Below are positions 5,963 to 49,628 of a stretch of DNA of 64,000 bases, in pieces (positions within the stretch are counted from its first letter, which is position 1; every line of letters begins with the position of its first letter). This DNA is from Gammaproteobacteria bacterium (GTDB taxonomy: Bacteria; Pseudomonadota; Gammaproteobacteria; JAABTG01), in contig JAXHLS010000006.1 in assembly GCA_034522055.1 (NCBI GenBank), positions 769,643 to 833,642 of the forward strand, read 5' to 3'. The notes beneath the pieces were generated by a model, which had not been told where the DNA came from, did no database searches, and saw only the letters and a list, made by a program, of their open reading frames with translations. The translations under genes were made by a program, and so were the position numbers.

Positions 5963-6547
5963 TCAGGACAGGAGCGGTTCGAGCCGCTGATTGATGGCTT
6001 CGCGGGCCCGAAAGATGCGGGAACGAACCGTGCCGATGGGGCAATCCATGGCCTGGGCAATGTCCTCGTAGCTCATTCCTTCCAACTCCCGGAGTGTGAT
6101 GGCGGTACGAAGTTCCTCGGGCAACTGTTCTATGGCCTCTATCACCGTCTGCTCTATCTCGTCCCGCAATAACAGCCGCTCCGGCGTCGCCTGATCCTTG
6201 AGTTCCGACTCGCCAAAGTACTGCTCGGCGTCGCCCGAGTCGATATCGTCACCCGGCGGCCGCCGTCCCTGGGCCACCAGATGGTTCTTCGCCGTGTTGA
6301 TGGCTATCCGATAGAGCCACGTGTAGAACGCACTGTCGCCCCGGAATCGGGGTAGCGCCCTGTACGCCTTCAGGAAGGACTCCTGGGCCACGTCGAGGAC
6401 CTCGGAGGGGTCCTTGATGTAGCGGGATATCAGCTTTATCAACTTGTGCTGATACTTCAATACCAGCACATCGAAAGCCGCCTTGTCGCCCTGCTGAACA
6501 CGCTCTACAAGCGCCTTGTCAACGCTATGCTCGACCACCCGGGCCAC
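5963..6547 (-). CDS. rpoE: Sigma factor RpoE/AlgU (ECF, envelope stress)
   Basis: 194 residues, the usual length of RpoE/AlgU. Region 2 (VLVLKYQHKLIKLISRYI, then VAQESFLKAYRALPRFRG, FYTWLYRIAINTAKN) and region 4 (ELRTAITLRELEGMSYEDIA, then CPIGTVRSRIFRAREA) are complete. It directs RNA polymerase to envelope-stress promoters. The start is a GTG at 6547 with a GGGGAG sequence about 10 bases upstream. A sigma-E-type promoter lies 35-60 bases upstream, so the gene probably activates itself. It heads the operon rpoE-mucA-mucB-rseC-mucD. Confidence 0.97.
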   Translation of the reverse strand: MARVVEHSVDKALVERVQQGDKAAFDVLVLKYQHKLIKLISRYIKDPSEVLDVAQESFLKAYRALPRFRGDSAFYTWLYRIAINTAKNHLVAQGRRPPGDDIDSGDAEQYFGESELKDQATPERLLLRDEIEQTVIEAIEQLPEELRTAITLRELEGMSYEDIAQAMDCPIGTVRSRIFRAREAINQRLEPLLS

Positions 6548-43838: not shown

Positions 43839-45101
43839 TCACAGGAGCACGACGGCGCCGCCCGCCACGGCCGCCAGGACCAACACCCCGCCCACGTAAC
43901 GCCCCATGGCCATGCCGCCGATGGCGCCCGCCATCCCGGCCTTCACCAGGGTGTTGCTGATGGCGGCGATGGTCACCGTGGTAGCCGCGACGGCGGTCGC
44001 CACGTCCCCGGCACGGCTCATGGTGGCGGTGGAGAGATTGATGGCGTCCACATCGTTCAAGCCCGACACCGCCGCCAGCACGTAGAGGCCTGCATCCCCC
44101 AGCCATTCCCGCAGGCCATGGGCAAACAGCAGGATGACCACCAGCAGCAGTCCGAACTGCAATGCGGTACGCAGATCGAAGGGGTTCTTCAGCCCCTGGG
44201 GCTCCTCTTCCTGGGCGTCGTCGCCGCTGCGGCGCCACAGCCACAGCGCGCCACCGTAGGTCACGGCCCCCATGACGGCCATGGCCGGCACCAGGGCCAT
44301 GCCCATCGGTGGATGGAGCAACCACGCCAGCAGCAGGACGCGGGGAAACATGGTGCCGGAGGCCAGCAGGATCCCCGCCGACAGTAACCGCCGCAGGGAC
44401 GGGCTGGAACGCCCCAGGCGGGAGAAGTTGAGGGTCACCGCGGTGGAGGCGGCGAGGCCCCCGAAAAGGGCCGTGGCACCCAGGCCGAGGCGTGGACCGA
44501 TGAGCTTGACGGCGAAGTAGCCGACGAAGGAGATGCCACCGATGAGTACCACCATCCACCAGATGGCATAGGGATTGAGGGCATTCCATGGCCCGTAGCC
44601 CTCGTTCGGTAGCACCGGCAGCACCACCACCGTGATGAGCAGGAGCTTGAAGATGGCGTAGAGTTCCTGTTGCTCGAGCCTCGCCACCGCCTCGCGAAAC
44701 ATGGGCTTGGTGCCCAGCAGCACCATGGTGACCACGCCCAGGGCCGCCGACACCGCCAGGTAACCGTGCATCACGGTCGCCCCCAGGCCGAAGGTCACGA
44801 GGCCCGCAACCGCGGTGGTGATACCGGGGTCACCGTCCTTGGCCGCCTCGACGCGGTGGGCGAAGAACAGCACGAGGGCCATCGCCGCGAACACCATGCC
44901 CAGCAGCAGCCCGCCATAGGCCTGCGCCAGCAGTCCCGACAGGGCACCCAGGAGTGCGGTGAGGGCGAAAGTACGGGTGCCGGCCACGGCCCCGAACTCC
45001 CGTCCCCGCTTGTGCCAGCCCCGCTCCAGGCCCACCAGCAGGCCGATGGCCAGGGCGAGACCGAAGCGGGTGAACAGTTCAACAGCGCCGAGTTCCGTCA
45101 T
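43839..45101 (-). CDS. MgtC-like/DUF4010 multi-pass membrane protein
   Basis: 420 residues from the ATG at 45101. The N-terminal part has the MgtC/SapB-type motif LALAIGLLVGLERGWHKRG and GTRTFALTALLGAL. The remainder is a DUF4010 membrane domain with about ten further hydrophobic segments, including ALFGGLAASTAVTLNFSRLG. Function is not established; MgtC relatives affect ATP synthase activity or Mg2+ starvation survival. It converges on oxyR with 12 bases between stops. Confidence 0.87.
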   Translation of the reverse strand: MTELGAVELFTRFGLALAIGLLVGLERGWHKRGREFGAVAGTRTFALTALLGALSGLLAQAYGGLLLGMVFAAMALVLFFAHRVEAAKDGDPGITTAVAGLVTFGLGATVMHGYLAVSAALGVVTMVLLGTKPMFREAVARLEQQELYAIFKLLLITVVVLPVLPNEGYGPWNALNPYAIWWMVVLIGGISFVGYFAVKLIGPRLGLGATALFGGLAASTAVTLNFSRLGRSSPSLRRLLSAGILLASGTMFPRVLLLAWLLHPPMGMALVPAMAVMGAVTYGGALWLWRRSGDDAQEEEPQGLKNPFDLRTALQFGLLLVVILLFAHGLREWLGDAGLYVLAAVSGLNDVDAINLSTATMSRAGDVATAVAATTVTIAAISNTLVKAGMAGAIGGMAMGRYVGGVLVLAAVAGGAVVLL

Positions 45102-45310
45102 GGCCGTGGCTCCCCATGCCTGCAACGCCTCGACGGGCGTCGCTTACAGGGACCTTCCCGGCCCCGCTCGTGGTCCCAGGCAGACGTAAATTTTTCTTTC
45201 CTGATCATTTGGTTACTCTTATCATCTCATTCCAAGTCTAGCACCGGAGTCGAGCCCGGGCCCCAGCCCTGGATTGCCCATTCCCAACGAGTTCATACAT
45301 CATCCCGGTC

Positions 45311-46816
45311 ATGGCCCGAAACATCCCCCCCTTGAGGTTGCTGGTGGCTGCCGGCCTCAGCCTGGCGCTGGCCCTGCTGCTGCTGGTGCTGCTCTACATC
45401 ACGGACATGGCCCTGACGGTGTGGCAGAAGCTGGTGCAGGCGCCGCCGGTCTTCGTCATAGGTTACGCCTTGTTTTTGGTGGCGGTGGCGGCCGGCGGCA
45501 CCTACATCATCTGGCGTCTCGCGCGCCCGCGGCGGACTATTCCTGATACCGTCGCTGCCCCGCCGCCGCCCACCGAGGATGAAGTCCGCAGGGAGGTGGC
45601 CTCGGCCCAGGAACGGGGCGTGGATGCCTCCGCTTCGGTGGCCGAGATCTCCGATCTGGAGCAACGCCGGGCCTCCGGCGAGGTCCACGTCGCCCTGTTC
45701 GGTGAGGTAAGCACCGGCAAGAGCGCGCTGGTCAACGCCCTAGTCCCCGCCGCCTCGACCCGGGTCGATCCCCGGTCGGGCACCACGCGGCGCATCGAGC
45801 GCCATACCTGGCAGAGCCCCGCCGGGGATCGCCTGGTGTTGGTGGACATGCCTGGAGTCAACGAGCCCGATGGTACCCTGACGGAACTCTCCACCGATGA
45901 GGCCCTGCGGGCCCACGTGGTGGTCTATGTGTGCGACGGCGACCTGAGCCGGGACCAATACGGAGAACTGCGAAATCTCGCCGCCTTCGGCAAGCCCCTC
46001 ATCGTCGCCCTGAACAAGGTGGACCGCTACAGCCCCGAGGACCTCGAGCGCATCACCGCACGCATCCGTGAACGCACCGGCAGCCATGCCGGTGTAGAAG
46101 TGGTACAGGTGAGCGCGGGCTCCGAGCAGGAAGTGACGGTGGTGCATGCCGATGGCCGCGAGGAAATCCGGCGCCGCCGCCTGCCCGCCAACGTGGATAC
46201 CCTGCGGGACGCCCTGCAACGGCGTATCGATCACGATGGGGAGGTCCTGGACGAACTGCGGGACGCCGCGGTGTTCGTGCTCGCCAAACGCAAGCTGGAC
46301 CAGACCCTCAAGACCCACCGGGACGAGGCCTCACGCCGGGTGGTGACCAGCTATACCCGCAAGGCGGTGGTGGGCGCCATGGCCGCGGTGAGTCCCGGCA
46401 TGGACATCATAATCCAGGGTTACCTCGGCGTCGGCATGGTCAAGGAGCTGTGCAAGATATACGACGTGCCGGTGCGCGAGGTGGAGATCGACCGGGTACT
46501 GAAGAACGCCACCGGCCGCGCCGGCAAGGCCCTGCCGGTGGCCCTGGCCATCGCCGGCAATTCCCTCAAGGCCTTCCCCGGCGCGGGTACGCTGGCAGGC
46601 GGCGTGACCCATGCCGTAGCCTATGGCCTCATGTTCGACAGTCTGGGGCAGGCCATCTCCCGCACCCTCGAAACCCGGGGCGCGTTGCCACCGGCCGTGG
46701 TCAGCCGAACCCTGGAGGAAGTGCTTGGTGAAGAACTGGAAACCCGTGCGCGACGCCTGGCAAAGGTTGCGCTTCAGAAGACCGAGAGAACAGACAAGGC
46801 CGCCGGCAACGGCTGA
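45311..46816 (+). CDS. Membrane-associated GTPase, first of a tandem pair (DUF697-like)
   Basis: 501 residues. Two membrane segments lie at about 9-32 and 46-67. The GTPase domain (about 125-290) has G1 GEVSTGKS, a G2-region threonine in SGTTRR, G3 DMPG (LVLVDMPGVNEPDG) and G4 NKVD. The C-terminal region (about 340-480) is hydrophobic and resembles the DUF697/YcjF membrane-associated domain (VVGAMAAVSPGMDIIIQGYL). It overlaps the second GTPase gene by 89 bases in another frame. Function unknown; a membrane-bound regulatory or remodelling GTPase is plausible. Confidence 0.85.
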   Translation: MARNIPPLRLLVAAGLSLALALLLLVLLYITDMALTVWQKLVQAPPVFVIGYALFLVAVAAGGTYIIWRLARPRRTIPDTVAAPPPPTEDEVRREVASAQERGVDASASVAEISDLEQRRASGEVHVALFGEVSTGKSALVNALVPAASTRVDPRSGTTRRIERHTWQSPAGDRLVLVDMPGVNEPDGTLTELSTDEALRAHVVVYVCDGDLSRDQYGELRNLAAFGKPLIVALNKVDRYSPEDLERITARIRERTGSHAGVEVVQVSAGSEQEVTVVHADGREEIRRRRLPANVDTLRDALQRRIDHDGEVLDELRDAAVFVLAKRKLDQTLKTHRDEASRRVVTSYTRKAVVGAMAAVSPGMDIIIQGYLGVGMVKELCKIYDVPVREVEIDRVLKNATGRAGKALPVALAIAGNSLKAFPGAGTLAGGVTHAVAYGLMFDSLGQAISRTLETRGALPPAVVSRTLEEVLGEELETRARRLAKVALQKTERTDKAAGNG

Positions 46817-48098
46817 TCGAGGAGGCCAGGGGCATCTGGACGATGCCCGCCTTTCCCTCACCGCTCTGCTGGAGGACAGCCATATCCCGCCCCAGGTACG
46901 GGCGGGCCTGGCGGGAGAGATGGAGCAGGTCCAGGAGATGCTGGATAAGCTCGAGCAGGGCCATCTCCATATCGCCGTCTTCGGGCGCGTGGGCGTCGGC
47001 AAGTCCGCCCTCCTCAACGCCCTGCTGGGCGAACGCCGTTTCAGTTGCAGCCCCCTCCATGGCGAGACCACCACCACCGCCATGGCGCCGTGGCGGGAGG
47101 TCGAGAAGGACGGCGTATTTCTCGTAGACACCCCCGGCATCAACGAGGTGGACGGCGAGACCCGGGAGCGCATGGCCCACGAGGTGGCCGGGCGCTCGGA
47201 TCTGGTGCTTTTCGTGGTGGAGGGTGACATCTCGGATACCGAACTGGCGGCCCTGCGCACCCTGCTGGAGGCCTCCCGCCCCATCATCCTGGTGTTCAAC
47301 AAGATCGACCACTATCGCGGTGAGGACCGGGAGGTGGTCCTGGCGTCCCTGCGCAACCGCACCCGCGATCTCATTCCGGAGCGCAACATCGTGGGCGTCA
47401 GCGCCGATCCGGCGGAGCGTGTCTACATCCAGGTGGCCGAGGACGGCAGCGAGCAGGAGACCGTGCGCCGGCCCGCTCCCGAGGTCCAGCAACTGGTGGA
47501 CCGATTATGGCAGATCCTGGAACGTGAAGGTAAATCCCTCATGGCCCTCAACGCCACCCTGTTCGCCGGTCGCCTGTCGGACGACCTCGCGCGACGGGTG
47601 GTGGAACTCAAGACGGAACTGGCCCAACGTCTGGTACGCAACTACTGCATCACCAAGGGCGTGCTGGTGGGGGTGAACCCCGTGCCGGTGGCGGATCTCG
47701 CCGCGGCTGCCGCGGTGGACGTCAGCCTGGTGGTCCACCTGTCCCGCGTCTACGGCCTGCCCCTGACCCGGTCGGAGGCGGGCGGGCTGATCCGCACCAT
47801 ATTTGCCCAGATGGCGGTGCTCATGGGCACCGTATGGGCCATCCACCTCCTGTCCTCCGCCCTCAAGGTGGGCACCCTGGGTTTGTCCACCGCACTGACG
47901 GCGGCGGCCCAGGGCGCGGTGGCCTACTACGCCACCTACATCGTCGGTGAGGCGGCGCGGGAGTACCTGCAGATGGGCAAGTCATGGGGTAGCGCCGGTC
48001 CCAAGCGGGTGGTACGCGACATCCTCGACTCGGTGGATCGCGACTCCCTGCTGGCCGGCGCACGAGAGGAGATCCTGGGCCGCATCAAGACGGGCTGA
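46728..48098 (+). CDS. GTPase, second of the tandem pair
   Basis: 456 residues from a GTG at 46728 preceded by GGAGGA. The GTPase domain (about 70-260) has G1 GRVGVGKS, a threonine-rich switch I (GETTTTAMAP), G3 DTPG (VFLVDTPGINEVDG) and G4 NKID. The C-terminal half has hydrophobic helices (about 310-430: VGVNPVPVADLAAAAAVDVS, MAVLMGTVWAIHLL) like DUF697 proteins. Unlike the first GTPase it has no N-terminal membrane anchor. The 89-base overlap in a different frame and the strong ribosome-binding site inside the upstream gene indicate coupled synthesis and probably a heteromeric complex. Confidence 0.85.
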   Translation: MKNWKPVRDAWQRLRFRRPREQTRPPATADRGGQGHLDDARLSLTALLEDSHIPPQVRAGLAGEMEQVQEMLDKLEQGHLHIAVFGRVGVGKSALLNALLGERRFSCSPLHGETTTTAMAPWREVEKDGVFLVDTPGINEVDGETRERMAHEVAGRSDLVLFVVEGDISDTELAALRTLLEASRPIILVFNKIDHYRGEDREVVLASLRNRTRDLIPERNIVGVSADPAERVYIQVAEDGSEQETVRRPAPEVQQLVDRLWQILEREGKSLMALNATLFAGRLSDDLARRVVELKTELAQRLVRNYCITKGVLVGVNPVPVADLAAAAAVDVSLVVHLSRVYGLPLTRSEAGGLIRTIFAQMAVLMGTVWAIHLLSSALKVGTLGLSTALTAAAQGAVAYYATYIVGEAAREYLQMGKSWGSAGPKRVVRDILDSVDRDSLLAGAREEILGRIKTG

Positions 48099-49217: not shown

Positions 49218-49628
49218 TCAGCCCTCCGGCTTGGCGCCCTGCTCCTCATCCCCCTCCTGCGAAGAGGCATCCTTGGCCTGGGCCTGATCCTGATCCTGGG
49301 CCTGGGCCTGGGCCTGGGCCTGACGGGCAGTGTACTCCCGGCGCTGCTCCGCTATGCGCTGCTGGATGGCGTTGCGCTGGGCCTCATAGGCCTGGCGCCA
49401 GGCCTCCCTGTCCTGTTCGAACAGCCTGCGCCGCCTCTCGCGCTCGGCCTCCAGTTCGGCACGACGGCGCTCGCGTTGCGCCGCCAGCTCCTGCCAGCGG
49501 GCCTCGTTGTACTGCCGGGCCTCGGCCTTGCGGGCCTCGTGAGCCGCCCGGGCGGATGGTTCGGCTGCCGTGGCAGCCGCGAAGCCCCAGAAGAGGCAGA
49601 ACAGGAGAACTAAATCTTTTGCTTTCAT
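49218..49628 (-). CDS. Exported charged coiled-coil protein with QA/QD repeats
   Basis: 136 residues. A signal peptide (MKAKDLVLLFCLFWGFAA, cleavage near TAA-EPS) is followed by a highly charged alpha-helical segment (ARKAEARQYNEARWQELAAQ, AELEAERERRRRLFEQDREA) and a C-terminal low-complexity run of alternating Gln-Ala and Gln-Asp pairs. The run is encoded by near-perfect hexanucleotide repeats at 49275-49322. No family recognised; probably periplasmic. Confidence 0.65.
   Translation of the reverse strand: MKAKDLVLLFCLFWGFAAATAAEPSARAAHEARKAEARQYNEARWQELAAQRERRRAELEAERERRRRLFEQDREAWRQAYEAQRNAIQQRIAEQRREYTARQAQAQAQAQDQDQAQAKDASSQEGDEEQGAKPEG
49275..49322. repeat. Hexanucleotide (GGCCTG-type) microsatellite inside a gene
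   Basis: A run of 6-bp units, mostly GGCCTG with GATCCT variants, encoding QAQ/QDQ repeats on the minus strand. Because units are a multiple of three, copy-number change alters length without frameshift. Confidence 0.85.

Follow-up and report, generated by a model that had tools for sequence, protein, structure and literature searches.

Two genes for membrane-associated GTPases, here called A and B, overlap out of frame in a 64,000-nucleotide stretch of DNA from a Gammaproteobacteria bacterium (contig JAXHLS010000006.1 of assembly GCA_034522055.1, positions 769,643 to 833,642; the whole stretch is referred to as the window). Their arrangement raises the question of whether the two proteins act separately or as one. 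A preliminary description of this DNA, made from the letters alone, had suggested a coupled pair forming a heteromeric membrane GTPase. Of that suggestion, the functional unit is strongly supported by co-occurrence of the two genes across genomes, and the complex itself we infer. Our preferred reading, with a probability of about 0.6, is that A and B together make up a single obligate heterotypic membrane GTPase that works like the tandem bacterial dynamins. The features needed for the argument are the following.

45311 to 46816, forward strand: gene A, 501 amino acids, ATG start, membrane-associated GTPase.
46728 to 48098, forward strand: gene B, 456 amino acids, GTG start, membrane-associated GTPase.
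46728 to 46816, forward strand: out-of-frame overlap of A and B, 89 bases, encoding the C-terminal helix of A (EELETRARRLAKVA...) and the N-terminal segment of B ((M/V)KNWKPVRDAWQRLRF...).
46714 to 46719, forward strand: GGAGGA, Shine-Dalgarno-like, inside A, with the GTG of B 8 bases downstream.
45311 to 45523, forward strand: coding region of the N-terminal membrane hairpin of A, residues 1 to 71, from hydrophobicity and model helices.
Protein A, parts: hairpin, residues 7 to 71; G domain with preceding helices, about 89 to 308; DUF697-like helical module, 310 to 456; C-terminal helices, 461 to 499.
Protein B, parts: N-terminal segment (helix 5 to 15, low confidence); G domain, about 62 to 250; long helix, 254 to 316; DUF697 match, 281 to 437.

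A first search of 56 genomes, the window's own included, found a B orthologue in 9, and A was present in 9/9 of those. With models of A and B, we detected A in 50, B in 50, and both in 49 of 369 gammaproteobacterial genomes. The two single finds lay at contig ends: A alone in G156, where it reaches base 5969 of a contig of 5971 bases, and a fragment of B alone in G241, a genome 55% complete, close to where a contig of 6806 bases ends. The preliminary description had named mostly partnerless homologues as the outcome that would speak against a pair, and we saw the opposite. In a phylum-wide draw, B was present in 12 of 398 genomes and A in 12/12 of these (the A of G152 was also found in the class search); the pair thus far described for one class is present elsewhere in the phylum as well. 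From GTDB contigs we kept the best 80 of 458 loci that passed a scan; among these, A lay upstream of B in a separate frame in 76. The other four were L101, with A in B's frame; L053, which begins at a contig edge; and L054 and L065, without A at that place. According to the record titles of the same 80 loci, the pair is present in lineages such as Competibacter, Thiosymbion, Thiodiazotropha, Sedimenticola, and Leucothrix.

Two families were covered more densely, with sets that share five genomes with the 369-genome class set. The family of G078 (63 genomes) had B in 56, A in 59, and both in 56; in each of the three genomes with A alone (G800, G814, and G819), A is cut at or near a contig end. 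The family of G072 (39 genomes) had B in 32, A in 32, and both in 31; in G761 the only find is a truncated A where a contig ends, and in G759 B lies at a contig edge and a fragment of A at the end of another contig. Over both families, A and B were found together in 87/102 genomes, with every single find at or near a contig end. When we considered only genomes at least 90% complete, B was present in 45/46 and A in 46/46 in the family of G078, and B in 24/25 and A in 23/25 in the family of G072. As far as these genome sequences can tell, A and B are co-inherited without a clear exception found, even when unlinked.

Unlinked copies were found in three genomes (G042, G072, and G202), and all three kept both genes. 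We regard this co-retention as the strongest argument for joint function. Loci L054 and L065 share coordinates with G202 and G072, whose intact A sits on another contig; a relic of the 3' end of A, including the Shine-Dalgarno-like site and the GTG, is still present ahead of B. In the relocated A (L118 and L119), the serine codon that lies over B's GTG is AGC, not AGT, which leaves the residue the same and removes the start of B. Because G072 and G202 are close relatives, their split is probably one event. In G042, A and B are on different contigs. With such natural splits, one can ask cleanly whether selection maintains the coupling or the partnership. As a separate observation, the B of G042 (L035) begins at ATG and has no N-terminal tryptophan-containing segment.

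Two further arrangements were seen. In L101, the C-terminal part of A and B lie in one open frame; we did not use this apparent fusion as evidence because A starts at a contig edge and the join lies near an adenine run at which close relatives have two frames, so that an assembly or indel effect is possible. In L136 and L137 (G368 and G751, of one family), genes that we read from their translations as yceI, cytochrome b561, and yceI lie between A and B. This insert was confined to these two loci, and a link to membrane isoprenoids or quinones is possible.

Next, we compared the two proteins. Both GTPases carry intact motifs, as the preliminary description had read them: G1 GEVSTGKS, G3 DMPG, and G4 NKVD in the window's A and G1 GRVGVGKS, G3 DTPG, and G4 NKID in its B. 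Across 109 B rows, the glycines, lysine, and serine of G1, the DTPG of G3, and the asparagine and aspartate of G4 are invariant, and the G4 lysine is kept in 108/109. Across 107 A rows, the Gly-Lys of G1 and the D-P-G of G3 are invariant, and NKxD stands at G4 in 102. The two A rows with GKSD at G4 come from L029 and L030, both from the same family as the window's genome, and hint from sequence at a relaxed nucleotide specificity of A there. At P-loop position 2, all B rows have arginine and 82/107 A rows have glutamate or aspartate; at position 4, serine is found in 100/107 A rows and 93/109 B rows, the window's own B having glycine. Serine at this position is also known from the P-loops of dynamin and mitofusin. 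A and B share 32% identity over 265 residues, and their family profiles align over 357 columns spanning the G domain and DUF697 (hhalign probability, 100). A and B are paralogous GTPases, ancient tandem duplicates.

Both window proteins have an MMR_HSR1/Era-type G domain, and MMR_HSR1 gave the top score among Pfam G-domain models. Dynamin_N (Pfam cut-off, 27) was also exceeded, with 33.9 bits for A and 43.5 bits for B, MMR_HSR1 scoring higher in both; it matched at an E of ≤0.001 in 8/8 B and 8/9 A sequences scanned. The DUF697-like C termini of the preliminary description were borne out by Pfam (PF05128; cut-off, 27.7), barely for A at 29.5 bits and clearly for B at 113.9 bits. Several A orthologues score under this cut-off.

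We looked for membrane contacts in both proteins. A has two strongly hydrophobic N-terminal segments (residues 10 to 28 and 41 to 59 or 49 to 67, depending on whether its own sequence or the family average is used), and its AlphaFold2 model (mean predicted local distance difference test [pLDDT] score, 91.7; predicted template modeling score [pTM], 0.81) places helices at 7 to 43 and 46 to 71. The N-terminal two-helix anchor that had been proposed for A is thus seen by both hydrophobicity and model. The accompanying claim that only A has an N-terminal anchor is probably wrong: the N-terminal segment of B encoded by the overlap conserves Ile3 in 81/109, Trp4 in 71/109, and Trp14 in 86/109 rows. 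This conserved tryptophan- and isoleucine-containing segment is a candidate for membrane contact, and B is probably not without an anchor of its own.

The segment is encoded in the DNA that A and B share, and the 89-base overlap and the GGAGGA ahead of the second start are both present as previously described. We collected 121 distinct loci, 110 of which have A and B on one piece. In 85/110 pieces, a motif such as V-K-I-W-K-R marks the start of B, which overlaps A by 59 to 107 bases (median, 80); the motif and search range for this count were chosen after the first pairs had been seen. The overlap frame is identical in 85/85, and the start codons are GTG in 83 and ATG in 2; L171 (ATG start, overlap of 107) fits the B start motif poorly. 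The remaining 25/110 pieces include gaps, short overlaps, and unresolved starts. A comparable Shine-Dalgarno-like site precedes most of the orthologous B starts compared. At four-fold degenerate sites of A, mean diversity is 0.43 inside the overlap (10 sites) and 0.59 outside it (229 sites); random draws of outside sites reach 0.43 with a P of 0.00015, a value that is approximate because the sites share phylogeny. This reduced silent-site variation of A indicates that the N terminus of B is real coding sequence, and the overlap is far beyond chance. It is an unusual case of one DNA stretch coding for two functional segments. In eight loci from other classes (L138 to L145), there is mostly little or no overlap between A and B, which suggests that the pairing predates the long overlap.

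We then asked how the pair compares with known systems. Cj-DLP1/Cj-DLP2 of Campylobacter jejuni, IniA/IniC, DynA/DynB, and BDLP1/BDLP2 resemble A and B in that each consists of two related membrane GTPases with neighboring genes. Such tandem pairing is a feature of bacterial dynamin-like proteins (DLPs), and A and B show it in the 110 of 121 loci noted above. The cited sections of one source state that bacterial DLP genes are mostly paired in operons and that assembly of the Campylobacter pair is needed for GTPase activity and raises lipid binding too (PMC6104087), and a section of another has the IniA authors considering that IniC may assist IniA (PMC6715688). Compared with the tandem DLPs, A and B are shorter (about 500 amino acids), have an Era-type G domain with DUF697 in place of neck and trunk, and have genes that typically overlap by about 80 bases. 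In the LeoA/LeoB/LeoC system of E. coli, as the cited sections describe it, an N-terminally anchored partner is encoded upstream of an anchor-less one, as with A and B; its authors also propose heterodimers across GTPase domains and report that vesicle release in knockouts is down to about half (PMC4159319). Leo differs in that its anchored partner is split over two genes and in that it has a dynamin neck, trunk, and paddle; in addition, leoA lies on a pathogenicity island, whereas A and B are near-universal in the two families covered.

More distant likenesses were also found. YcjX and YcjF of E. coli are a GTP-binding protein (so described in the title of a paper) and a DUF697 inner-membrane protein encoded adjacently with a 4-base overlap. 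The annotation of YcjF names a DUF697 membrane protein and nothing more, and that of YcjX names DUF463, whereas A and B each hold both a GTPase and a DUF697 part, so the separation of these parts onto two proteins is not a feature of A and B. Members of the slr1306 family are known as single cyanobacterial proteins. This family (NF049994) was the best NCBIfam match of both proteins, with 162.8 bits for B and 74.6 bits for A, far below its cut-off of 490. DO-GTPases resemble A and B in that two paralogous copies occur in 38% of their systems, according to the cited part of the source (PMC7159879); they come with GAP1 and variable effectors, and beside A and B no widely recurrent third gene was seen among 120 loci by blast clusters, no GAP1 model having been run. 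We found no description of the A-B pair in the open-license literature on DUF697, YcjX/YcjF, slr1306, TIGR01620, tandem dynamins, and Leo. DUF697 itself is almost without described function, and six papers of that literature name it, once each. With A and B, the bacterial heterotypic membrane GTPases would extend past the dynamins.

The simplest model that accommodates two GTP sites, the membrane hairpin of A, and the possible amphipathic contact of B is a heterotypic membrane GTPase. We infer its complex formation, GTPase activity, dimerization, membrane work, and cellular role as follows. A would be fixed in the inner membrane by its hairpin, and B would dock on A via its N-terminal helix and its hydrophobic DUF697 module, the overlap keeping both products near each other and similar in quantity. 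Binding of GTP would join the two G domains as a heterodimer in which each stimulates the other. Hydrolysis would shift the helical modules, and the inner membrane would be bent, tethered, or reorganized, as is thought for Cj-DLP1/2 and LeoA/LeoBC. That the pair is conserved within families suggests housekeeping work in the envelope rather than a mobile accessory. A bolder version is tentative, and we regard it as rather doubtful: that A and B form a class of heterodimeric inner-membrane GTPases apart from dynamins, with an Era-type G domain plus DUF697 module, one permanently anchored partner, mutual G-domain activation, and a contact helix of B created by out-of-frame reading of A's C-terminal helix, preserved across many gammaproteobacterial families in a core membrane-remodeling machine.

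The dynamin-like or IRG-like action that had been suggested draws on the Dynamin_N scores given above and on structure matches. In Foldseek searches, the top matches of B were BDLP, mitofusins, IRGs, the Campylobacter DLP pair, and LeoA, with template modeling (TM) scores of about 0.3, and IRGs and IniA ranked high for A. By VIA-align, YsxC (Z, 20.5) and Era (Z, 19.6) lead for B, and B aligns to Fzo1 with a Z of 18.9 and a root mean square deviation of 5.5 over 246 residues (B 27 to 293, which extends beyond the G domain); the best match of A is Era (Z, 21.9, over 163 residues). In sequence searches of the PDB, the best matches fall in or around the G domain of A and B, and the DUF697 part is hardly covered by the listed structure matches (the B model has a pLDDT of 80.5 and a pTM of 0.60). 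At the level of single domains, Era and YsxC match best, so that membership of A and B in the dynamins is not shown; the likeness to dynamins and IRGs is supported in the sense that the pair works like them.

Several observations weigh against reading A and B as an obligate heterotypic GTPase of this type. The G domains are closer to Era and YsxC than to dynamins, whole-model TM scores to dynamin-family structures are just about 0.3 for both proteins, and the neck and trunk of a dynamin are only incompletely seen. Residues 1 to 31 of B mostly have a pLDDT of <50, so that its N-terminal helix is weakly predicted. In the B of the window, this segment carries Asn3, Trp4, Trp11, and Leu14, with Asn3 and Leu14 replacing the usual isoleucine and tryptophan. 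G4 of A deviates in 5/107 rows (GKSD twice, NKAE, NKSG, and NKIN). Genes between A and B are tolerated in two genomes of one family, and G752, a 98% complete genome of the family of G072, has neither A nor B; it is also a candidate for seeing what goes missing with the pair. In a covariation analysis of A and B (97 pairs; effective number, 65), signal outside the shared DNA was inseparable from phylogeny. The six strongest interprotein signals are the overlapping codons themselves (A474 to A492 with B2 to B20), and other covarying pairs (e.g., A461-B330) exceed five random re-pairings, which destroy shared phylogeny, so that no interface can be inferred from them. Finally, among 16 regions folded at the B start, 16/16 had z values of -1.7 to +1.7, and none was unusually stable.

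This last result bears on the word "coupled" in the preliminary description. The genes overlap as it said, in the 85 pieces counted above; coupling is not supported, either by RNA structure or by the length of the overlap. According to one study, overlaps of 1 or 4 bases are usual in coupled gene pairs, and genes for subunits of heteromeric complexes are enriched in short overlaps (PMC10666635). An overlap of about 80 bases departs from that usual geometry, and coupling is not shown; "coupled" should be taken here as overlapping.

Other explanations would give the pair a different task or no common one. An envelope-stress pair that does the job of ycjX-ycjF and would sense or repair inner-membrane damage with no active remodeling would fit the adjacency and short overlap of those two genes, the weak match of B to TIGR01620 (3e-5), and the fact that A and B are the sole DUF697 matches in the window's genome (E ≤ 0.001). 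B also aligns to YcjF over 100 columns with 27% identity and an E of 0.01, but with a probability of only 4, and profile similarity of A and B to single YcjX and YcjF sequences is marginal. The union of GTPase and DUF697 in each protein speaks against this explanation, as does the search of 107 regions upstream of A with six patterns for sigma-54, sigma-E, and sigma-32 consensus, which gave no clear excess over mononucleotide shuffles; we consider it unlikely. We hold it quite improbable that A and B are merely paralogues, adjacent by descent and acting independently at the membrane. Their origin as tandem duplicates would suit this idea, and the covariation test was uninformative on it. Linkage can passively co-inherit two genes, yet the three genomes with unlinked copies retain both, and unless they function jointly, it is difficult to see why they should co-occur almost perfectly over many families.

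Two functions away from membrane upkeep have less in their favor. In favor of a Leo-like, dynamin-type anti-phage system, the top defense matches in PADLOC were LeoA for A (4.9e-19) and LeoBC for B (1.7e-17). However, these matches span mainly the G domain, and no record among 72,556 plasmid and 50,697 phage records covered 80% of B (A was not searched). Among good genomes of the two families, its distribution shows no patchiness, and the near-universality of the pair there argues against a defense system; we hold this explanation very improbable. The structure matches to Era and YsxC (Z of about 20 to 22), together with the leading score of MMR_HSR1, could instead indicate an Era/Der-like pair working on ribosomes or RNA near the membrane. 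This we find extremely improbable: no RNA-binding domain model matched A or B at an E of ≤0.01, both proteins have hydrophobic helical modules, and A has its membrane hairpin.

Finally, we examined the genes around the pair. The protein encoded downstream of B does belong to the BPSS1780 family, as the preliminary description had it (NF041043; score, 198.6 bits; cut-off, 90). As a third component it was rejected, since phmmer found it in only 2/120 loci, both from the window's genus. The flanks of these 120 loci vary in length, and some end at contig ends; among the top 45 blast clusters of their neighbors, no conserved third gene recurred widely. Alternative-frame shadows of A and B account for most of the largest clusters. 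The largest other cluster is a frame just upstream of A, present in 17/120 loci, and the rest reach at most 12. Two other features of the window lie on the opposite strand.

49218 to 49628, reverse strand: small open reading frame with a Q/A/D-rich repeat, without a Pfam match.
43839 to 45125, reverse strand: MgtC/DUF4010 membrane protein (Pfam), divergent from A.

The MgtC/DUF4010 gene also adjoins the pair in L028, from a genome of the same genus.

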